Positions 33,439 through 58,818 are shown, numbered from the stretch's first letter. The stretch is 64,000 nucleotides of DNA from Gammaproteobacteria bacterium (GCA_040183005.1 JAMPIW010000007.1:1-64000); one strand, 5' to 3'. Made by a program: numbers and translations. Notes: generated by a model from the letters alone, not told the origin.

Positions 33439-33656
33439 TGCGGTTGTAACAACGTTCTGCATTGCCCCCTGCTGATATTTGACTTTGATACAGCATGGCG
33501 ATGGGTAAGTAGATGAGAAATAGCGATATAGAATATAAAAGACGCCCTTGACTCTCTTGCTACGTCGCCTGGGGGTCCGCAATGAATAGTTCCCATGCCC
33601 AATCATCACAGCATATGCTTGAAGTGGATGTCATCCGGTAACTATGGCAAATTTCC

Positions 33657-33673
33657 TGTCGGATAATTTTACA
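33657..33673 (+). promoter_or_regulatory. 17-bp activator element A1
   Basis: TGTCGGATAATTTTACA, the farthest of three such elements upstream of the sigma-54-type promoter at 34125. Confidence 0.6.
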
Positions 33674-33846
33674 CCGCCCAAACCTGCGCCTGCCGCTGTC
33701 GGCCCAGCTTCCTCGCGCATATTGAAAGATTCAATAAGTCAATAACATAGTAGTGGTATCAACCACTCTATTTACTGTCAACGCTGTGGCAATCACCCTC
33801 GAAACTAATCAAAAATGATATCGTCCGGCAACCATAGAATATTTTC

Positions 33847-33863
33847 TGTCGGATAATTTTACA
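33847..33863 (+). promoter_or_regulatory. 17-bp activator element A2
   Basis: TGTCGGATAATTTTACA, identical to A1 and 190 bp downstream of it. Confidence 0.6.
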
Positions 33864-34028
33864 TCACCTACATCTGCGCCCTGCCGCTGTCTGACCCGCC
33901 TTCTTGCGCATACAGGATAACTCTATAAATCAACAGCATAAAAGTTTAATCAACTACTCTTGTCACTATCGACGCCACGGTGACCACCCTCGAAATTAAT
34001 TAATAATTGATCAAAATCCATCATATTT

Positions 34029-34045
34029 TGTCGAAAAAAATTACA
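34029..34045 (+). promoter_or_regulatory. 17-bp activator element A3
   Basis: TGTCGAAAAAAATTACA, 182 bp after A2 and ending 79 bp before the -24/-12 promoter. The same spacing separates element B3 from its promoter. Confidence 0.6.
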
Positions 34046-34124
34046 CTCGTCATCTCCTGTTAACGCGCCATGATATTACATAACATTTTGTTTTATAACA
34101 AATTATATCTTATTCGGCGAGGAT

Positions 34125-34140
34125 TGGCGCGAGTGATGCA
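34125..34140 (+). promoter_or_regulatory. Sigma-54-type promoter, copy A
   Basis: TGGCGCGAGTGATGCA fits TGGCRC-N5-WTGCA of sigma-54 promoters with the exact GG to GC spacing. It is identical in copy B while neighbouring bases have diverged, which suggests selection. Predicted start near 34151, leaving a leader of about 270 nt. Confidence 0.7.
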
Positions 34141-34230
34141 TCATTAAAAACGAGAGCCGTTATTGTGTATTTTACGGATAGCCTTAGGGAAGGTGACTGG
34201 CTTTTATAGTGAGGAATAGAGGGAAGAAAG

Positions 34231-34425
34231 ATGGCTTTGTCACAGCATCAACCATTCATCCTGCAGTATTGTCGTGTGTCTTGGGCACGTCTAGCAGTCA
34301 CGCTGATTAACCCCTCCTGTTGTGGCTTTACTCTCATCGGCTGTCTCGACTTGCCCCACTTTCTTGATGTTAAGGGGAGCGTCCCCTTTTTTTCCTTATC
34401 AGTTAACAAGGAGGAGTCAAAATGA
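34231..34425 (+). CDS. Possible leader ORF, 64 residues, overlapping the next gene
   Basis: A frame starting MALSQHQPFILQ with ribosome site GAGGGAAG runs to a TGA that overlaps the ATG of the 34422 gene (ATGA). Copy B of the region has a frame with the same start (MALSQHQQFIFQ, 36903-37151), but a one-base shift changes the rest, so coding is doubtful. It may be a translated leader that couples to the next gene, or a chance frame in the long 5' leader. Confidence 0.3.
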   Translation: MALSQHQPFILQYCRVSWARLAVTLINPSCCGFTLIGCLDLPHFLDVKGSVPFFSLSVNKEESK

Positions 34426-36113
34426 ATCGAATATTTCGTATAGCTGCAATGGCGGCGAGTGTGATCTTCATTACGCTCTCAATTGACACCGCCTATGCGG
34501 GGGCGATTTACACCACCGACAAGACGGGTACCATCGTCAACGCGAACACCAACTATGGTCTTGCCACGGACGTCTACCTTAGCGGCGGCTCTCAGAACCA
34601 AAGTGCCTCGGGTCTGAGCGACGGCACGTATTATTTCCAGGTCACCGATCCCAGCGGGAAAACATTGCTTTCCACGGATGCGGCTGTGTGCCGCCAGCTG
34701 ACAGTGGCGGGCGGACGGGTCGTCGGGGCGGCGGGACCCTGCCCTCATCCTAATGGGACATTCAATCCCGCGAATGGGGCGACGCCGGTCCAGCTTGCGC
34801 CATTCGCGCAAACGCCAAATCATGGAACCGTGAACAAGGCATGGTTGGTCCCCACCAGCAGTGCTACGATATCGAGCTCCGACCCCAAGGTACTCGTCTT
34901 CAAGCAGTCGGACTCCAAGACGGATAATTTCAAGGTCCCTTCGGGCGTGGTTCAACAGGGTTCCTGTCAACCGTCTAGCTCGCTGTCCGCAATGGTCAGC
35001 GGGACAAACGTCGTCTCGTACGTTCCCAAGGGGGCTTGGTCAGGAGGATCCTCTGGGATTTCCGTGGTCAATATAGAGGGCAGCAGCGTCACGCCTACTC
35101 TCATCCCGACGTCTAACGTCGTGAACTCCTGTGCCTCGAACCCGGTGACGGGCACGACGGCGTGCACCGCGAACAACACAGATGTGTATCTGCTGTCCGG
35201 TACGACGCTGGGTAGCACGCTTACGAGCAGCGGGACCGGTACTATCGGTTTCTCAGGCGGTAGTTGCACCAATTGCGGGATCGCGATGGACGCCACGCAT
35301 AACAAGGCGGTGATTGGGCTCAGCCTCGGTGGCATAGGCGGGTTCCAGTTTCTAAACCTCGCCACATCCACGTTCGAGCCGGCATTCGCATCCATGGCGC
35401 CCGGGACAACTAGGATTTCGGAAGATCCGCTCATCGATCCGGTCCGGAATCTCTTATTGTCCGCCGCTGAGAGCAACAATTACGAGATCGTCAACGTGGC
35501 GACGAGTACGACCCCCACGTTCTTCGAAAACCCCATCGCAGGCACGGGTGGTGGAGTGCTTGATTCCTCAGGCGAAGACTGCAGCACAGGTATCGCTCTG
35601 GCGCCTGCCGAATTTTCCGGACCATCCAATGTGTACATTGCCGATTTGACTCAGGCCACGTTCACGCCTGGGTCACCCGGCACGTGGACTGCACCTTCGC
35701 AGGTACAGACCCTGTCGGAGTCGACCCTGTCGGCGGGGGCAAGCGGCCTCGCTGTGGCGCAGGGTACGCATACTGGTATCGTGTCGGGGGAATTCGGCGG
35801 TGATGCCATCACGGCGATTGCGCTTCCCACGACATCCGGTAGTGGAACGCCCGCGATCACAGACTGGGTGACGTGCAGCATTGGGAGCGGCTTCTCGTTA
35901 GGCCTTGATCCACACACCGTGACTGCATATCAGAGTCCGAACGGTGGTGATGCGATCGCATTGCTGGCGAATTCGCCGCCAGCATCTACGCTCGCCGTAG
36001 TGGATCTCACCAAGATGTTGAATGCCACGATCGTGCCGCGCACCGTAGGTGGGCACGCCTGCTTATCGGGCACGCTCCCGGCGACGGTGGTTAGCTTCAT
36101 TCCCGTACCATAA
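34422..36113 (+). CDS. Exported beta-rich protein, predicted sigma-54 controlled
   Basis: A 563-residue exported protein. The signal peptide spans residues 1-26 (ending AYAG). Residues about 35-175 form a domain with ATDVYLSGGSQN and LSDGTYYFQVTDPSGKTLLS, a pattern I associate with prealbumin-like repeats in secreted surface proteins. From about 180 on the sequence is glycine, serine and threonine rich with propeller-like stretches (GISVVNIEGS, GGFQFLNLATSTFEP, VLDSSGEDCSTGIALAP). Paired cysteines suggest disulfides. There is no PEP-CTERM tag or lipobox, so it is probably secreted freely or held in the outer layers. It has the sigma-54-type promoter and three activator elements. Function unknown. 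Confidence 0.8.
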   Translation: MNRIFRIAAMAASVIFITLSIDTAYAGAIYTTDKTGTIVNANTNYGLATDVYLSGGSQNQSASGLSDGTYYFQVTDPSGKTLLSTDAAVCRQLTVAGGRVVGAAGPCPHPNGTFNPANGATPVQLAPFAQTPNHGTVNKAWLVPTSSATISSSDPKVLVFKQSDSKTDNFKVPSGVVQQGSCQPSSSLSAMVSGTNVVSYVPKGAWSGGSSGISVVNIEGSSVTPTLIPTSNVVNSCASNPVTGTTACTANNTDVYLLSGTTLGSTLTSSGTGTIGFSGGSCTNCGIAMDATHNKAVIGLSLGGIGGFQFLNLATSTFEPAFASMAPGTTRISEDPLIDPVRNLLLSAAESNNYEIVNVATSTTPTFFENPIAGTGGGVLDSSGEDCSTGIALAPAEFSGPSNVYIADLTQATFTPGSPGTWTAPSQVQTLSESTLSAGASGLAVAQGTHTGIVSGEFGGDAITAIALPTTSGSGTPAITDWVTCSIGSGFSLGLDPHTVTAYQSPNGGDAIALLANSPPASTLAVVDLTKMLNATIVPRTVGGHACLSGTLPATVVSFIPVP

Positions 36114-36131
36114 CGATATAGGAGTTATGCA

Positions 36132-36169
36132 CGTAGGGGTGGACGAGGATGGCCTCATTCACCCCTACG
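36132..36169. terminator. Hairpin after the 34422 gene
   Basis: A perfect 10-bp stem, CGTAGGGGTG against CACCCCTACG, with an 18-base loop lies 19 bp after the stop codon. No T-run follows, so it may stabilise the message or assist Rho-dependent ending more than act alone. Confidence 0.45.
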
Positions 36170-36353
36170 CCATTGCTATGGACCATAACCCATAGTTCCA
36201 AGCCTGTAGGCTGAATGAAGCGAAGCCCAACCCAACAATTCAGGAACCCGAGTTCAGGCCGCTTGCAATTCCCCTGTATATTCCGGTAGGTTTGCGAGAG
36301 CCGAGCAGGGTATGCTCGAAGTGGATGTTTTTCGGCGACCATGGAAAATTTTC

Positions 36354-36370
36354 TGTCGAATAATTTTACA
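36354..36370 (+). promoter_or_regulatory. 17-bp activator element B1
   Basis: TGTCGAATAATTTTACA, the farthest of three elements in copy B, 169 bp before B2. Confidence 0.6.
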
Positions 36371-36522
36371 CTACTAAAATCTGTGCCAAGTTGCCGTCGG
36401 CCCCGCTTTCTCGTGAATGTTAAAATATTCTACAAATCAGAAACATATCAGTTAAATAAAGCATTCTAGCCACCCTCGAAATTAATCAAAAATGATGTAA
36501 TCCGGTAATCATGGTAAATTTC

Positions 36523-36539
36523 TGTCGAATAATTTTACA
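36523..36539 (+). promoter_or_regulatory. 17-bp activator element B2
   Basis: TGTCGAATAATTTTACA, identical to B1, and 182 bp before B3. Confidence 0.6.
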
Positions 36540-36704
36540 GTGCCCAAACCTGTGCCCTGCCGCTCTTGGCACCGCCTCCTTGCGCACATTGAATGATCCC
36601 GTAAATCAATAGCATAGTAGTTTAATCAACTACTCTTGTCACTATCGACGCCGCAGTAACCACCCTCGAAACTAATTAAAAATTGATCAAAACTCTCCAG
36701 AGTT

Positions 36705-36721
36705 TGTCGAGAAACTTTACA
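36705..36721 (+). promoter_or_regulatory. 17-bp activator element B3
   Basis: TGTCGAGAAACTTTACA, ending 79 bp before the -24/-12 promoter, as A3 does in copy A. Confidence 0.6.
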
Positions 36722-36800
36722 CTCGTTATCTCACGGTGGTGCGTTATAGAATTACATATATATTTGTATTTAATAAACTTTTATATTATTTTCTGAGGAT

Positions 36801-36816
36801 TGGCGCGAGTGATGCA
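36801..36816 (+). promoter_or_regulatory. Sigma-54-type promoter, copy B
   Basis: TGGCGCGAGTGATGCA, identical to the promoter of copy A. The predicted start is near 36827, giving a leader of about 370 nt before the ATG at 37199. Confidence 0.7.
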
Positions 36817-36902
36817 TGCTTGAAAACGAGAGCCGTTTTTGCGTTTTTTACGGATAGCCTAAGGGAATCTGACTGACTTTAGACGGGACGGAGGGAAGAA
36901 AA

Positions 36903-37151
36903 ATGGCTCTATCACAGCATCAACAATTCATCTTTCAGCGTTGTTGCATATCTTGGCCGTGTCCAGCAGGCGTGCTGCTTAATCCTCCTATTGTGGCTTT
37001 ACTCTCTTCGGCAGTATCGACTTTCCCTGCTTTCTTGATGTTGTCCCATATTTGGAATAGGCGTTTGAGGCGGGTTAGCCATAATACAAGACTAGCCCCT
37101 TTTTGTTCAAAGTCATACCTATCACTTGAGGGTAAGGGAGTAGTTGGATAA
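36903..37151 (+). CDS. Possible leader ORF, 82 residues
   Basis: Starts MALSQHQQFIFQ with GAGGGAAG upstream, like the frame at 34231, but diverges after about 30 codons because of a one-base difference. It ends 47 bp before the dehydrogenase gene. The conserved start and ribosome site hint at translation of the leader; the lack of conserved protein downstream makes a functional product unlikely. Confidence 0.2.
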   Translation: MALSQHQQFIFQRCCISWPCPAGVLLNPPIVALLSSAVSTFPAFLMLSHIWNRRLRRVSHNTRLAPFCSKSYLSLEGKGVVG

Positions 37152-37198
37152 GCGTCATTTTGTCTCCTATGCTTTTACTAACCCATGGAGGGCGAATC

Positions 37199-39079
37199 AT
37201 GAACAACATATTTTTTCGGTTGAAAACTCTTGTTTTCCTGACTGTAATGGCGCTGAATATTTCCCTGCCGACCTCAGCCAACGGCGCTAACGAACTGACC
37301 AACCCGATTCCTGCATCCATCCCGGCCGGTGCCATGGTCAAGCTGGAAATGGTCGCCAGTGGTATGGTTGCACCTAACTGGGGTACGGCCGCGCCGGGCG
37401 ACGATGATCGACTCTTTGTGGTCGATCAAACGGGCATCCTATGGGCGGTTGATCTCGAATCGGGCGACAAGACTGTGTTCGCCAATCTCAGCGCCTTACT
37501 GGTGCCTCTGGGTGTCGGTGGTCCTGGCACCTTTGACGAGCGTGGCTTTTTGGGCCTGGCATTCCATCCCAACTATCAAAATAACGGCCTCCTCTATACC
37601 TACACCTCGGAACTCGCCAGCGGCGGCGAGCCGGATTTTCCCGTACCCTTCGGCGCGGGCGCCAATAACCACATTGTGGTTAGCGAGTGGCGCGTGCCTA
37701 ACCCACATGATCGCGCGTCCGTGGTCGATCCGGGCAGCCGACGCGTGCTAATGCGTATCGGAGACCCCCAGTTCAATCACAATGCGGGGGCGCTTAACTT
37801 CGGCAAGGATATGAAGCTATATATCGCCGTGGGTGATGGCGGTGCGGCCGACGACCAAGGCGCGGGTCACAGCCCTAGGGGGAATGGGCAGGATCTCAGC
37901 AACCTCCTCGGAAAGATATTGCGCATCGATCCCTTGGGAAACAATGCGCCCAACCATCAATATGGCATTCCTGCCGACAACCCGTTCTTAGCCGCTGGTG
38001 CTCCGCCGACTGGCGGTGCGGCTGGCTGCGCGGATGGTGCCTGTGACGAAATATACGCCTTTGGTTTCCGTAATCCGTTCCGCTTTACCTTCGATGCCGC
38101 AACGGGTGATATGTACGCCGCCGACGTGGGACAGAACGATATCGAAGAACTGGATGTCGTCGTGGCGGGCGGCAACTACGGCTGGCCTGTCAAGGAAGGT
38201 TCCTTCTGCTTCGATGCCAATGGTACCAATCCCGGCTTCGTCACCGATGCAAAGCCTTGCGCCAATGAGCCGCCCATGTTGATCGATCCCGTCGCCGAGT
38301 ACGACCACGATGAAGGCATTTCCATCATTGGCGGTTTTGTCTATCGCGGCAACAAAGTCCCGGAACTGATGAATCGTTATGTTTTCGGTGATTACGCCCG
38401 CAGGTTTGGCGGCAACAACGGCAGGCTGTTCTATCTCGATAAACGCAATATCGTTCGCGGAGAGAACATGAAGAAAAGTTCGATCTCTGAACTGCGCATC
38501 TACGGTCAGGACGGGCTGGGAATGTCGCTGCTCGGCTTCGGAACAGACGCTAAGGGCGAGATTTACGTGATGGCCAACATGACGGGGGTACCCTCCGGCG
38601 AGACGGGGGTCGTCATGCGGATAGATTCGCTGGCGCGCAACAAGCAAACACGTAATTTCAGGACCCGTCTCATCGGCGCTGAACAGGTGCCGGTAGCGAT
38701 CGACACCCAAGCCAAAGGGCACGCACACTTTCAGCTCAGCCAAGATGGTACTGAGCTCAAGGTCCAAGTGGTTGTCAGCAATATCAAGGACGTGATCGGC
38801 GCCCACATCCATAGGGCGCCGGCAGGTGCCAACGGACCGATCGTCGCGAGCTTTATTCCGGACACCGCAGGTTTTCTGAGTGGTGGACCGTTTGTTGCCA
38901 ACCCGATTAACACCCAGGGGGTACTCGTACGCGGCACCATCACCGCGACTGACTTGGTTGGCCCCCTAGCCGGTATGCGGATGAAGGCGTTGGTCGATGC
39001 CATGCGCAGCGGCAATACCTATTTCAATGTCCACACCACCGAGCATCGCGGGGGGGAAATTCGCGGGCAGATCGACTAG
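37199..39079 (+). CDS. Exported PQQ-type sugar dehydrogenase with CHRD domain
   Basis: A 626-residue exported protein. The ATG at 37199 has GGAGGG seven bases upstream. After a signal peptide (about 1-30) comes a six-bladed propeller of the glucose/sorbosone dehydrogenase family (about 40-480): DDRLFVVDQTGILWAVD, ERGFLGLAFHPNYQNNGLLYTYT, FNHNAGALNFGKDMKLYIAVGDGGA, AFGFRNPFRFTFD and GDMYAADVGQNDIEELD, with residues expected for PQQ and calcium binding. The C-terminal part (about 495-626) is a CHRD domain (GAEQVP, GAHIHRAPAGANGPIVASF, TYFNVHTTEHRGGEIRGQI). It would oxidise sugars outside the cytoplasm. It has no PEP-CTERM tag but shares the sigma-54-type control region. Confidence 0.9.
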   Translation: MNNIFFRLKTLVFLTVMALNISLPTSANGANELTNPIPASIPAGAMVKLEMVASGMVAPNWGTAAPGDDDRLFVVDQTGILWAVDLESGDKTVFANLSALLVPLGVGGPGTFDERGFLGLAFHPNYQNNGLLYTYTSELASGGEPDFPVPFGAGANNHIVVSEWRVPNPHDRASVVDPGSRRVLMRIGDPQFNHNAGALNFGKDMKLYIAVGDGGAADDQGAGHSPRGNGQDLSNLLGKILRIDPLGNNAPNHQYGIPADNPFLAAGAPPTGGAAGCADGACDEIYAFGFRNPFRFTFDAATGDMYAADVGQNDIEELDVVVAGGNYGWPVKEGSFCFDANGTNPGFVTDAKPCANEPPMLIDPVAEYDHDEGISIIGGFVYRGNKVPELMNRYVFGDYARRFGGNNGRLFYLDKRNIVRGENMKKSSISELRIYGQDGLGMSLLGFGTDAKGEIYVMANMTGVPSGETGVVMRIDSLARNKQTRNFRTRLIGAEQVPVAIDTQAKGHAHFQLSQDGTELKVQVVVSNIKDVIGAHIHRAPAGANGPIVASFIPDTAGFLSGGPFVANPINTQGVLVRGTITATDLVGPLAGMRMKALVDAMRSGNTYFNVHTTEHRGGEIRGQID

Positions 39080-39278
39080 GGTGTGTTGACATATGAAAGT
39101 GATGTACTGATACAGCGCTGTTCAAGGATGAGTGGTAAAGCATCTGCCGAAGGCGTTACCTCTGCCATAGAGAAGAGAGCGCAGTAAGCAAAAAGGGCAC
39201 CTATAACTTGCTTGAGCAGAGATCGAGGTCTCGGGAGTTATGGGTGTCCTTATTATTCCCACTCAAAGGAGGATTCCA

Positions 39279-43198: not shown

Positions 43199-43295
43199 TA
43201 TTCAATACTCCGGACAAATCACGCTGACTGTTGGGCAGGGTAATATGTCTGGCGGAAAATAAAAAGCTTCTTTGTATTTGAGGCAAAGGTTTGAT

Positions 43296-43462
43296 CCTAA
43301 AAAACTCAGTTATCCACGAAAGTCACGAAAAAAAACACGAAAATACTCAAATACATATAGCGATTTTACTTGCCACCCATCCGGTGAATTGCTGAAGCAA
43401 TCCATGTTTTTGTTTTATTTCGTGAATTTCGTATTTTTCGTGGACAAAAAGCGGTTTTAAGG
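43296..43462. mobile_element. MITE-like element, family 1, copy 2
   Basis: A 167-bp copy of the element at 6280-6444. Ends are CCTAAAAAACTC and GGTTTTAAGG; the central palindrome ATTGCTGAAGCAAT and the CCGGTGAATTGC stretch are conserved. It is flanked by TTGAT direct repeats (43291-43295 and 43463-43467), the reverse complement of the ATCAA at copy 1. It lies between tmk and the reductase gene. Confidence 0.85.
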
Positions 43463-43473
43463 TTGATTGTTGC

Positions 43474-54251: not shown

Positions 54252-55156
54252 CAAACGCCCTACGCATTGGCGTCGACCTCGGAGGCACCAAGATCGAGGC
54301 CATCGCGCTATATGATAACGGTGCCATCCTTGCCCGCCGCCGTTTGCTCACCCCCAGCGGCGACTATAACGGCACACTATGCACCGTCATTGATCTGGTG
54401 ACGGGCATCGAGTCCGAACTTGGCACGCATGGCAGCGTTGGCATCGGCACGCCGGGGGCGGTATCGCGCGCCAGCGGCCTGATCAAAAACTCCAACTCCA
54501 CCTGCCTGAACGGTAAGCCCTTGCATCAGGATCTGGAGCAAGCGCTGGCCCGCCCTGTGCGTATCGCGAACGACGCCGATTGTTTTGCCCTGTCGGAAGC
54601 TATCGACGGCGCGGCGGCGGGTGCAGATGTGGTGTTTGGCGTCATCCTCGGCACCGGCGTGGGTGGCGGCATCGTCGCGCATGGCCGGTTGCTGGCGGGG
54701 CCGAACGCCATCGCCGGAGAGTGGGGCCACAATCCCTTGCCATGGCCGCAGCAACACGAGTGGCCCGGCCCGCCGTGCTATTGCGGCAGGACGGGCTGTA
54801 TCGAAACCCTGCTCTCCGGCCCAGGCATGACACGCGATCATTTTGCGCTCACCGGCGATAGTCTCACGCCGGACGCAATAAGCGTGTTCGCTGCTACGGG
54901 CGATGAAGTATGCGAGGCAACACTCGCCCGCTACGAAGACCGCCTGGCGCGCGCCCTGGCGAGTGTGATCAATATCCTTGACCCGGATGTGATCGTGTTA
55001 GGCGGTGGAGTGTCGAACCTGTCGCGTTTGTATAGCAATGTTCCCCGCCTGTGGGGTAGTTATGTGTTCTCGGATCGCGTAGATACCCGCCTGGTCCCCG
55101 CCCTGCACGGCGATTCCAGCGGCGTGCGCGGTGCGGCATGGTTGTGGGGGAGATAA
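54248..55156 (+). CDS. ROK-family sugar kinase, fructokinase-like
   Basis: A 302-residue kinase of the ROK family. N-terminal GVDLGGTKIEAIAL binds ATP phosphates, IGTPGAVS, NDADCFALSEA and GTGVGGGIV surround the active site, GEWGHN follows, and the zinc site is CYCGRTGCIE. The E. coli relative Mak is a fructokinase; sugar specificity here is not certain. It starts at the btuF stop (ATGA), although the two have no clear functional link. Confidence 0.9.
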   Translation: MTNALRIGVDLGGTKIEAIALYDNGAILARRRLLTPSGDYNGTLCTVIDLVTGIESELGTHGSVGIGTPGAVSRASGLIKNSNSTCLNGKPLHQDLEQALARPVRIANDADCFALSEAIDGAAAGADVVFGVILGTGVGGGIVAHGRLLAGPNAIAGEWGHNPLPWPQQHEWPGPPCYCGRTGCIETLLSGPGMTRDHFALTGDSLTPDAISVFAATGDEVCEATLARYEDRLARALASVINILDPDVIVLGGGVSNLSRLYSNVPRLWGSYVFSDRVDTRLVPALHGDSSGVRGAAWLWGR

Positions 55157-55239
55157 AGCAAGAGTGTATTGACAGGCACGGTGCCATGGATGGACACTTG
55201 CTCGATACAAAAACAATATTTCCTATTGAGGGAGGGTCC

Positions 55240-57072
55240 ATGCGGACGAGTTCAGGTCATGTGTTGCTCGTTGCGGTGCTGTTCAGCCTGATTCTTTCCG
55301 CCTGTGGGGGTGGGAGTAATGAAACGCCGCCGCTTCCTGATACTGTATCCCCCAGAGTTAAAGTGTCTACCCCCCTTGATAGCGCAAAAAATGTGGGATT
55401 AAGGCCCGTCATCACGGCAAGGCCCGTCATCACCGCAACATTCTCAGAGGCCATGAACCCCGCCACGCTGAGCGGCGTCACATTTATCGTGAGCGCGGGC
55501 GGTAGTCTCATTCCGGGTGCGGTTGGAAGCTCCGTTCCAGGCACGATCAGTTACAGTGGCAACACCGTGACCTTTGCCCCTGCCGCGGATCTTGATGGCA
55601 ATGCCCTCTATACGGCCACGATTACCACAGGAGCAAAAGACCTTGCTGGCAATCCCCTGGCGGCGCCGTATGTTTGGCGCTTCACATTGGGCAATAGAGG
55701 GGATGCGGTCGCCCCTCGGATTGTCATGGATGGCAACGGCAACGCAATTGCCGTGTGGCAACAGTGGGATGACGAGGTTCGCTATTGGAGGATTCTGACC
55801 AGGCATTATGATGCAATAGCCGGTTGGGATACCGTTGCGAAACCCATAGACGATGGCAAGGGAGATGCGCGCAGTCCTCAGATTGCGATGGACGGCAGCG
55901 GCAACGCCTGGGTAGTCTGGGAGCAGCACGATAACAGCAGCGCTGCTCCCATCTCCAGCATCTGGGCAAGTCATTACGCCGCTGGGGTGGGGTGGGGCGC
56001 GCCTGCCCTCATCGAGACAGAAATCGCCGATGCACACGAACCCCAGATTGCGGTAAACCCGAGCGGCCAGGCCACTGTCGTTTGGCGCCATGCCGATGGT
56101 CCATTTTTGGAGCAAGGGACCCAGAATAAACGTTATAACGTATGGAGTGTCCGGGCTGTTCGGTATGATGACTTGACATGGAGCGCCGTGGCGTCACTTG
56201 AGACGGATGACGCGAAAGGGCATGACGCATATAACCCTCGGGTTGTAATGGATAGCTTAGGCGATGCGGTTGTTGTATGGCAACAGTCCAGTCTTCCCGA
56301 TGCCACGCCTATCAGCAGTATCTATTCTAATAATAGTAGTTTCTCAGCTGCTCTCAAGAAGCCTATTTGGGGCTCGGCAACACTCGTTGAAAGCAACGAT
56401 GCGGGCGCGGCGATCAATCCGCAGATAGGTTTGGATGGCGGCGGTAAGGTGATTGCCGTGTGGAGTCAATCCGATGGTGCGCGGTATAACATTTTAGCGA
56501 AACGTTATATATCCGGCTCTTGGAGAGGAGAGGTGCCGATAGGAGCCGACAACGCAGGGGATGCATTGGTGCCCAAGATCGCCTTCGATGCCGACGGCAA
56601 TGCGATTGCCGTATGGACGCAATCCGAAGTTGTTATAGCAGACACAAAGGCCCCCGATTGCAAGCCTGTTTCGGTCTTTATCAGGAGCATCTGGGCGATT
56701 CGCTACGATGCAAGTAGTCAACAGTGGGCTGGGCTTCAGCGCGTGGAGACGGACAACAGTGCCTTCGTCAAAAAGGTGGACTCTGAGTGCAAAGTCACAG
56801 CACATGATGCTTACAATCCCAGCATTGCCGCAGATGGTAAAGGTAGTTTCGTGGTGGTGTGGGACCAGTCTGACGACACCCACCATAACATATGGGTCAA
56901 CCGCTATGTTGGCGCTTCGGGATGGGAAAGCGCGGCACTTGTCGAAACCGATGATGAGGGTGATGCGGTTGCCCCTCAAGTTGCCGTGGGTGGCAGCGGC
57001 AATCCGATTGTTGTATGGCAACAGCGCAGGGGTGCGTGGTGGGATGTCTGGTACAACCGTTTAATAAAATAA
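55240..57072 (+). CDS. Lipoprotein with Ig-like domain and eight-repeat propeller
   Basis: A 610-residue lipoprotein starting at ATG 55240 after GAGGGAG. The lipobox is LILSAC near residue 20. A bacterial Ig-like domain (about 40-150; VKVSTPLDSAKNVGLRP, ATFSEAMNPATLSG) is followed by eight repeats of about 55-65 residues, each with a PxIxxDGxGNAxAVWxQ-type motif (for example PRIVMDGNGNAIAVWQQ). Eight repeats suggest an eight-bladed beta propeller on the cell surface or in the periplasm. The next gene is a paralog. Function unknown. Confidence 0.87.
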   Translation: MRTSSGHVLLVAVLFSLILSACGGGSNETPPLPDTVSPRVKVSTPLDSAKNVGLRPVITARPVITATFSEAMNPATLSGVTFIVSAGGSLIPGAVGSSVPGTISYSGNTVTFAPAADLDGNALYTATITTGAKDLAGNPLAAPYVWRFTLGNRGDAVAPRIVMDGNGNAIAVWQQWDDEVRYWRILTRHYDAIAGWDTVAKPIDDGKGDARSPQIAMDGSGNAWVVWEQHDNSSAAPISSIWASHYAAGVGWGAPALIETEIADAHEPQIAVNPSGQATVVWRHADGPFLEQGTQNKRYNVWSVRAVRYDDLTWSAVASLETDDAKGHDAYNPRVVMDSLGDAVVVWQQSSLPDATPISSIYSNNSSFSAALKKPIWGSATLVESNDAGAAINPQIGLDGGGKVIAVWSQSDGARYNILAKRYISGSWRGEVPIGADNAGDALVPKIAFDADGNAIAVWTQSEVVIADTKAPDCKPVSVFIRSIWAIRYDASSQQWAGLQRVETDNSAFVKKVDSECKVTAHDAYNPSIAADGKGSFVVVWDQSDDTHHNIWVNRYVGASGWESAALVETDDEGDAVAPQVAVGGSGNPIVVWQQRRGAWWDVWYNRLIK

Positions 57073-57096
57073 AAGTTCAAAACTAAGGAAACTGTC

Positions 57097-58818
57097 ATGC
57101 CGCTGGCCTCCAGGATTGCATTGCTGGTGATTGTTCTTGTTCTTGCCGCATGCGGCGGGGGCGATAAGGAGCAGCCGCAAATCGGCCCGATACCCGGCCA
57201 CACGGGTGTTGTATCTAACGCGTCGTTTGACCCTCAAATCGCGGTCGACGGCAACGGCAATGCGTTTGCGGTATGGGCCAAGTTCGATGGCACGCGCAAG
57301 AATATCTGGGCCAATCGATATGTGGCAGGTTCCGGCTGGGGCAGGCCGCAGATGATCGAGAATGACAACGCTGGGGATGCCGATCTCCCCCAGATCGCCT
57401 TCGATGCGGCTGGCAATGCGGTTGCCATTTGGCGCCACACCGAAATTGTTACGGCAGGGGTTCCTAATCCTTCGGGGAAGGTTACCAATTGCAAACCTAG
57501 CCGGGTTGCCATCGGAGGTATCTGGGTCAATCGCTATGACGCCATTAAGCAGTTGTGGGCCGGGGCGCAGAAGGTTGAGACAAAAGACAGCGCCGTCATC
57601 GAAATAATCATCAACCCAGATGATTCCGAGTTGTGCAAACTCATAGCGCATGATGCCCAAAACCCACACATTGCCGCAGATGGCAAAGGCAATTTCGTGG
57701 CGGTATGGGAACAGTCCGATGGGGTGCGCAAAAATATCAGAGCCAATCGTTATGATGCCGTTGCGGGGAAATGGGGGGCGACCCCTGATACGATCGAGGC
57801 CAATACGGCTGACGCCAATTCCCCTCAGATAGCCGCAGATGGCAAAGGCAATTTCGTGGCGGTATGGCGGCAAATTGCGGCGAGTAGCGTGATACCCAAT
57901 CAGTACGATAGTGTACAGAATAAACGCTATAACCTTTGGGGTAATCGTTATGATGTGGCAAGCCAGCGGTGGGGCGGGGCAACCCTGGTCAGTGATAATA
58001 CGCTACTGGTGGCGGGCGACCCCAGCAATCCGAATGTTAACGGAAATGCCGATACCCCTCATGTTGCCATGGATGCCAACGGCAATGCCTTGGCGGTATG
58101 GGCGCAATCAAATCATATCTTTGCCAACCGTTATGATGCAGCTACCCAGCTGTGGGGTGTAGCGCCGCAGTTTCCGCAGTCGGTCGAAAATAACCCCGGC
58201 TGGGCAGCTGCTGCTCCACGGATTGCCATGACGGGCGGCGGCGATGCGCTGGTAGTGTGGGAGCAGTATTTTGACAATGATCCCCATGATCATATCCCTG
58301 CGTGGAAAAACATCAGGGCTAATCGCTATATCGCAGGCGTCGGCTGGCAAGCGGCTCAGCTCATTGAAAATGATGATAAGGGCCATGCACTAACACCCCA
58401 GGCCGTCATCGATGCAAATGGCAATGCGATTGCCATTTGGCGTTACGCTGAAACCGTTGTCGCAAAGGTGGAGGATGACCCCAACACCCCTTTCGCTTGC
58501 GACCCTCGGGTCACGATCGGGAGTATCCGCGTGAATCACTACGATGCAATTAGGCAGCAGTGGGTCGGTGCTCAGCAGGTCAGCGTTCAGCGTGTGGGAA
58601 CAGAGAATGATATCGTCATCGAAGAAGTGGGTTCAGTGTGCAAATTCAAAACAGGCCCCAGATACCCCGATGCTTCCAATCCTCACATTGCTTTGGATGC
58701 GACCGGCAACGCCTTGGCGGTATGGAGCCAAAGTAACGGCGTGCGCACGCTGATTGATGCCAATCGCTACGCAGTGGGCGTCGGCTGGGGAAGTGCGGAG
58801 TTGATCGAAGGCCAATAG
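57097..58818 (+). CDS. Lipoprotein with eight-repeat propeller, paralog
   Basis: A 573-residue lipoprotein with lipobox VLAAC near residue 18 and no Ig-like domain. It has eight repeats of the same motif as its neighbour (for example PQIAVDGNGNAFAVWAK, PHIAADGKGNFVAVWEQ), so both proteins share the repeat number. It begins 24 bp after the upstream gene, making a likely two-gene operon that arose by tandem duplication. Ligand unknown. Confidence 0.87.
   Translation: MPLASRIALLVIVLVLAACGGGDKEQPQIGPIPGHTGVVSNASFDPQIAVDGNGNAFAVWAKFDGTRKNIWANRYVAGSGWGRPQMIENDNAGDADLPQIAFDAAGNAVAIWRHTEIVTAGVPNPSGKVTNCKPSRVAIGGIWVNRYDAIKQLWAGAQKVETKDSAVIEIIINPDDSELCKLIAHDAQNPHIAADGKGNFVAVWEQSDGVRKNIRANRYDAVAGKWGATPDTIEANTADANSPQIAADGKGNFVAVWRQIAASSVIPNQYDSVQNKRYNLWGNRYDVASQRWGGATLVSDNTLLVAGDPSNPNVNGNADTPHVAMDANGNALAVWAQSNHIFANRYDAATQLWGVAPQFPQSVENNPGWAAAAPRIAMTGGGDALVVWEQYFDNDPHDHIPAWKNIRANRYIAGVGWQAAQLIENDDKGHALTPQAVIDANGNAIAIWRYAETVVAKVEDDPNTPFACDPRVTIGSIRVNHYDAIRQQWVGAQQVSVQRVGTENDIVIEEVGSVCKFKTGPRYPDASNPHIALDATGNALAVWSQSNGVRTLIDANRYAVGVGWGSAELIEGQ

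Follow-up and report, generated by a model that had tools for sequence, protein, structure and literature searches.

Block duplication of a long PEP-CTERM box ahead of two unrelated genes for exported proteins in a gammaproteobacterium

Two copies of one control region

In one gammaproteobacterial genome, two neighboring genes encode exported proteins that share no sequence homology, yet each is preceded by much the same stretch of intergenic DNA. What kind of element is this stretch, and how did it come to stand before two unrelated genes? The window analyzed here is a 64,000-nucleotide stretch of DNA (GCA_040183005.1 JAMPIW010000007.1:1-64000, Gammaproteobacteria bacterium), and coordinates are window positions throughout. 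Its genome of origin (G000; 3.33 Mb, 9 contigs) was compared with seven relatives, among them sister species of the same genus (G001 and G003) and G002, for a set of 8 genomes. Every genome except G000 is split into at least 40 contigs, one relative is 78% complete, and the region is present in three sister genomes only.

A first-pass annotation had described a regulatory region of about 0.75 kb that was duplicated, alignable through most of its length, and followed by unrelated genes. This description held in each respect. BLAST aligned the two copies end to end at 76% identity (E 1.5e-147, 519 bits), 565 of 731 ungapped alignment columns (77%) were identical, and similarity extended beyond short motifs. 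The best BLASTP match between the two downstream products had an E value of 0.038 over 39 aa. The copies follow one another in the same orientation at a distance of 2.7 kb, each with a gene behind it, and are noncoding, the region being intergenic in all copies. BLAST of the complete set of G000 contigs returned no third close copy, and plasmid records contained no DNA match to the region. A pattern scan for the promoter and start region across 84,980 species genomes recovered known same-genus records only, apart from a single chance match ahead of a flagellar (flgF-like) gene. The features of the locus are as follows.

33614..34371, + strand: copy A (activator sites, promoter, leader); 76% identical to copy B, 79% to G003:C33, 78% to G001:C32
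33657..33673, + strand: PrsR-type 17-nt motif a of copy A, TGTCGGATAATTTTACA; motif 1 of Haft et al. 2006
33847..33863, + strand: PrsR-type 17-nt motif b of copy A, TGTCGGATAATTTTACA
34029..34045, + strand: PrsR-type 17-nt motif c of copy A, TGTCGAAAAAAATTACA; 79 nt before the -24 element
34124..34139, + strand: sigma-54 promoter A, TTGGCGCGAGTGATGC, GG-N10-GC; 15 of 16 columns invariant in four copies
34140..34421, + strand: leader A, 282 nt; homologous in all four full copies up to 34371
34372..34393, + strand: terminator-like hairpin with T-run in leader A, directly ahead of the ribosome-binding site of gene A
34422..36113, + strand: gene A, 563-aa exported protein with neither a known domain nor a PEP-CTERM signal
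36311..37042, + strand: copy B of the duplicated region, by alignment to copy A
36354..36370, + strand: PrsR-type motif a of copy B, TGTCGAATAATTTTACA
36523..36539, + strand: PrsR-type motif b of copy B, TGTCGAATAATTTTACA
36705..36721, + strand: PrsR-type motif c of copy B, TGTCGAGAAACTTTACA
36800..36815, + strand: sigma-54 promoter B, same sequence as promoter A
36816..37198, + strand: leader B, 383 nt; weak hairpin with T-run at 37072-37104
37199..39079, + strand: gene B, exported GSDH-CHRD protein (PQQ-type sugar dehydrogenase fold plus CHRD domain) lacking a PEP-CTERM signal
39186..39257, + strand: long hairpin 3' of gene B, fold z -5.1

Identity of the region as a PEP-CTERM box

Haft et al. 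(2006, PMC1569441) described a two-motif element before PEP-CTERM genes of Proteobacteria. Motif 1 is 17 nt long, ends in TTTACA, and is sometimes repeated, while motif 2 is a sigma-54 motif (-24 GG, -12 GC) located 32 to 92 nt past the last motif 1. Distances from promoter to start codon averaged 71 nt with a maximum of 221 nt, and boxes before non-PEP-CTERM genes were allowed for as a minority.

Both copies in the window resemble this element in their repeated motif, their spacing, and their GG/GC promoter. Of the six motifs in A and B, five carry the terminal TTTACA and the third motif of A has ATTACA instead, motif c, nearest the promoter, is a variant of motifs a and b in each copy, and the last motif is followed after 79 nt by the GG-N10-GC promoter in A and in B alike. 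The 16-bp promoter, TTGGCGCGAGTGATGC, is identical at 34124-34139 and 36800-36815, as the first-pass annotation had noted. The 17-bp elements that it mentioned are present, three per copy, and can now be placed within an internal repeat of about 190 bp; the distance between the starts of motif b and motif c is 182 nt in A, B, and G003 and 181 nt in G001. When substitutions were compared by part among four copies, the three motifs and the promoter had 60 of 67 columns invariant versus 392 of 662 elsewhere (p 2.4e-7).

The likeness extends to the regulatory proteins. G000 encodes PrsR (734.8 bits, NCBIfam cutoff 502.6), PrsK (829.7 bits, cutoff 300), and two PrsT proteins, both over the NCBIfam cutoffs, and the four genes lie side by side at about 146-156 kb of contig C2. 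The two-motif pattern occurred at six sites in G000 and at none in a reversed control; besides A and B, three sites precede PEP-CTERM genes and one precedes a gene for a 125-aa protein. Seven further genomes of the genus or family also carry boxes, and five of the seven downstream genes read encode PEP-CTERM proteins. Because PrsK, PrsR, and PrsT are present and the other boxes stand mostly before PEP-CTERM genes, the identification is more than a resemblance: judged by sequence, A and B are long-form PEP-CTERM boxes, a known element type. The first-pass call of a sigma-54 control region was right as far as it went and missed this identity.

Several features set A and B apart from published boxes (PMC1569441). 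The domain that gives the boxes their name (TIGR02595, C-terminal) had seven matches in G000, none of them at gene A or gene B; each copy carries three motifs in the internal repeat; the leaders, at 282 and 383 nt, are longer than any published (at most 221 nt), while the other boxes read here had promoter-to-start distances of 41 to 143 nt; and the whole region is duplicated as a block, with cargo that varies between species. The closest experimental parallel is pepA of Aquincola tertiaricarbonis (PMC9850573), an organism with PrsK/PrsR, in which an RpoN-dependent promoter with a predicted upstream enhancer serves one PEP-CTERM gene from a single box in an intergenic region of nearly 85 nt, with no duplication reported.

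Two of the other boxes in G000 deserve mention. The site at G000:C9:47689-47784 is well formed and lies 41 nt ahead of the 125-aa protein, which has no evident export signal. Within the window, a PEP-CTERM protein gene (164-1000, - strand) has its own two-motif box (1295-1050, - strand) with a wider, 95-nt spacer to the sigma-54 promoter. Across the PEP-box sites of the 8 genomes, distances from last motif to promoter clustered at 53-54, 64-65, 72-79, and 95 nt. Successive clusters are spaced by roughly one turn of the helix (period 10.5 bp, R 0.66, p about 0.0014, 15 groups), as if PrsR were confined to a single face of the DNA.

By the motifs, the published system, and the established logic of enhancer-dependent sigma-54 promoters, phosphorylated PrsR would bind the 17-nt motifs and, via DNA looping, activate RNA polymerase-sigma-54 at the GG-N10-GC promoter, and transcription would then pass the long leader into the exported-protein gene. 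Both promoters would be activated by PrsR in parallel, in line with the RpoN dependence shown for pepA in Aquincola (PMC9850573), and we infer that gene A and gene B share control.

Cargo genes and their arrangement in sister species

The 563-aa product of gene A had no Pfam or NCBIfam match, and a search of the seven relatives found no homologue, leaving G000 as the only carrier among the 8 genomes. A hypothetical protein from a Streptomyces plasmid (L092 3509-5170) is a homologue, 63% identical. This absence and the plasmid homologue together suggest lateral acquisition of gene A, and its codon usage is mildly atypical only. The cargo proteins all give the impression of beta-propellers, for the 563-aa protein a candidate fold only; its single-sequence structure model, at a pLDDT of 33, was of no use. 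For gene B, annotation as a PQQ-type dehydrogenase with a CHRD domain stood, with the start refined to what is most likely the ATG at 37199. Its orthologue in G001 is 96% identical and lies behind the same region.

Copies before other genes were found when the relatives were searched, as the first-pass annotation had advised. In G003, the region follows the same aldolase/SDR gene but precedes a gene for a kelch-repeat exported protein, the two together taking up about 2.6 kb between the neighboring genes. In G001, the neighboring genes at the aldolase/SDR site are only about 170 bp apart. The G001 region is found at a different place (contig C32), ahead of the gene B orthologue and with a continuous homologous leader, among flanking genes that have no counterpart in G000, G002, or G003. 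A truncated copy on contig C38 of G001 has no recognizable exported cargo. A more diverged region in G000 (L087, C7, about 1791.7 kb), also with motifs 182 nt apart, precedes an exported protein of 917 aa that bears Ig-like and P domains; its counterpart in G001 (L089, C54) has a similar protein downstream, and its counterpart in G002 (L088, C70) has other genes downstream, a TraT-like gene among them. In all, across three species, copies of the region precede three genes for exported proteins that are unrelated to one another, and a diverged relative precedes a fourth.

Two further observations concern noncoding DNA at these sites. The G001 aldolase/SDR spacer (L078 5764-5601) is 75% identical over 177 bp to window positions 43291-43467, another intergenic stretch. 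The long hairpin at 39186-39257 has one counterpart each in G001 and G003 (L014 10795-10859; L016 2279-2209), is always 3' of a region copy, and has no counterpart in the five other relatives. It may mark where the locus once ended on the right, or may be a terminator; a dispersed repeat was rejected, as the hairpin is single copy in 3 of the 8 genomes.

Age of the duplication and competing explanations

Pairwise identities among region copies were 77 to 79%, whether compared within one genome or between species, and fourfold-degenerate sites of two neighboring genes were 77 to 82% identical between these species. Since divergence between A and B equals that at fourfold sites between species, the duplication is, by this molecular yardstick, about as old as the species split of the genus. 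Site patterns agree: 9 sites group A with B, 24 group A with G003 and B with G001, and 20 group A with G001 and B with G003, so neither A nor B has the other as its closest copy, and a recent duplication is rejected. The same fourfold comparison means that most of the similarity needs no selection, and purifying selection on the whole region is an unnecessary assumption. Sites of the 24- and 20-site patterns tend to cluster along the alignment (runs test p 0.02), which is what recombination between module copies would produce; the numbers are small and the signal weak, making recombination suggestive only.

The best explanation, and in our judgment a probable one, is that PrsR/sigma-54 modules duplicate, recombine, and travel. 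The module of activator sites, promoter, and leader would have been duplicated at about the time the genus radiated, after which copies probably recombined and moved, either by themselves or together with a gene. In this way different exported genes, one or more of them probably lateral, would have ended up behind shared PrsR/sigma-54 control without a PEP-CTERM sorting signal. Points against this account are the long promoter-to-start distances, the terminator-like hairpin ahead of gene A, and the small number of genomes that carry the region. PrsR binding, cargo expression, and the order of exchange are parts of this account that we infer. The first-pass annotation had proposed promoter capture, in which the region spread by duplication and brought a second gene under the same control. 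A duplicated sigma-54 region before unrelated genes is what was found, and local capture is only one possible course of events: the B-type copy and the GSDH-CHRD gene occur together elsewhere in G001, meaning that region and gene can travel as a unit, so copy B need not have captured its gene locally. It is possible, and we raise it tentatively, that the site is an exchange locus, where the module and leader stay fixed and lateral exported genes are swapped by recombination between module copies. If so, new secreted functions would join the exopolysaccharide/PEP-CTERM program at once.

The long leader invites a different reading, in which what was duplicated is a small gene complete in itself, about 250 to 300 nt long and ending in a terminator, whose sigma-54-driven product is an RNA or a short peptide, with the large genes as neighbors or reached by regulated readthrough (attenuation). 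Homology between A and B stops where the terminator-like hairpin of A starts (34372-34393), and the alignment places weaker hairpins with T-runs at the matching position in B and G001, with one pair changed on both sides; the T-run is missing in G003, however, and terminator-like sites were about as numerous in shuffled sequence, and the scan cannot by itself count as proof. The leader, homologous across the four full copies, holds an open frame (MALSQ...) with a ribosome-binding site in all of them, but its dN/dS of 0.45 to 0.75 and a one-base shift in copy A argue against a conserved small protein, and the frame was not called a gene. Divergence in the leader is similar to that at fourfold sites, covariation is too weak for a conserved structure, and Rfam returned nothing but a chance miRNA match outside the leader. 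A small gene is accordingly unlikely. Given the hairpin in A and its weaker counterparts in B and G001, attenuation within the leader is possible.

A reading of the region as one end of a mobile element, moved for instance by a REP-associated transposase with the motifs as incidental passengers, is quite improbable. Region-bearing units do occupy differing sites in sister species. A fragment beside the truncated G001 copy is similar to the beginning of a REP-associated transposase, and the G001 C32 unit is flanked by short REP-like repeats; the fragment had no Pfam match. Against this, the units showed neither terminal inverted repeats nor target duplications and contain no gene for a recombinase or transposase, and conservation is highest in the motifs rather than at the ends. 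The 3' hairpin is single copy per genome and missing from the G001 C32 unit, and its single occurrence in G000, which has two units, also argues against a transposon or gene-cassette system. The head-to-tail arrangement, with a gene after each copy, could also be drawn as a local tandem duplication of region plus gene, after which one gene was lost or replaced and the other copy's box became functionless. This is highly improbable: the site patterns do not pair A with B, gene A contains no GSDH relic and has a close homologue elsewhere, and motifs are conserved in both copies.

Duplicating, traveling modules have a general precedent in promoter capture and enhancer duplication, where a single control region likewise comes to stand before unrelated genes. 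Unlike the general case, the module here is a sigma-54 region that depends on an enhancer and spans about 750 bp, with species-specific cargo at one locus. What is new is that a long PEP-CTERM box was duplicated whole and stands ahead of unrelated exported genes that are not PEP-CTERM genes, with cargo differing in sister species; no report of such a block-duplicated box was found in the open-licence literature. The locus clearly illustrates the copying of a complete enhancer-dependent control region and its reuse for unrelated exported proteins, with sister species as alternative states. It also suggests that the PrsK/PrsR program, known from PEP-CTERM genes and floc formation, controls secreted proteins lacking the PEP-CTERM signal, and the series of regions offers natural material on how laterally acquired genes gain regulation.

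Elsewhere in the window, two adjacent genes (55138-58818) encode similar lipoprotein-like proteins with many 'D..GNA.AVW.Q' repeats and are apparently tandem paralogues.
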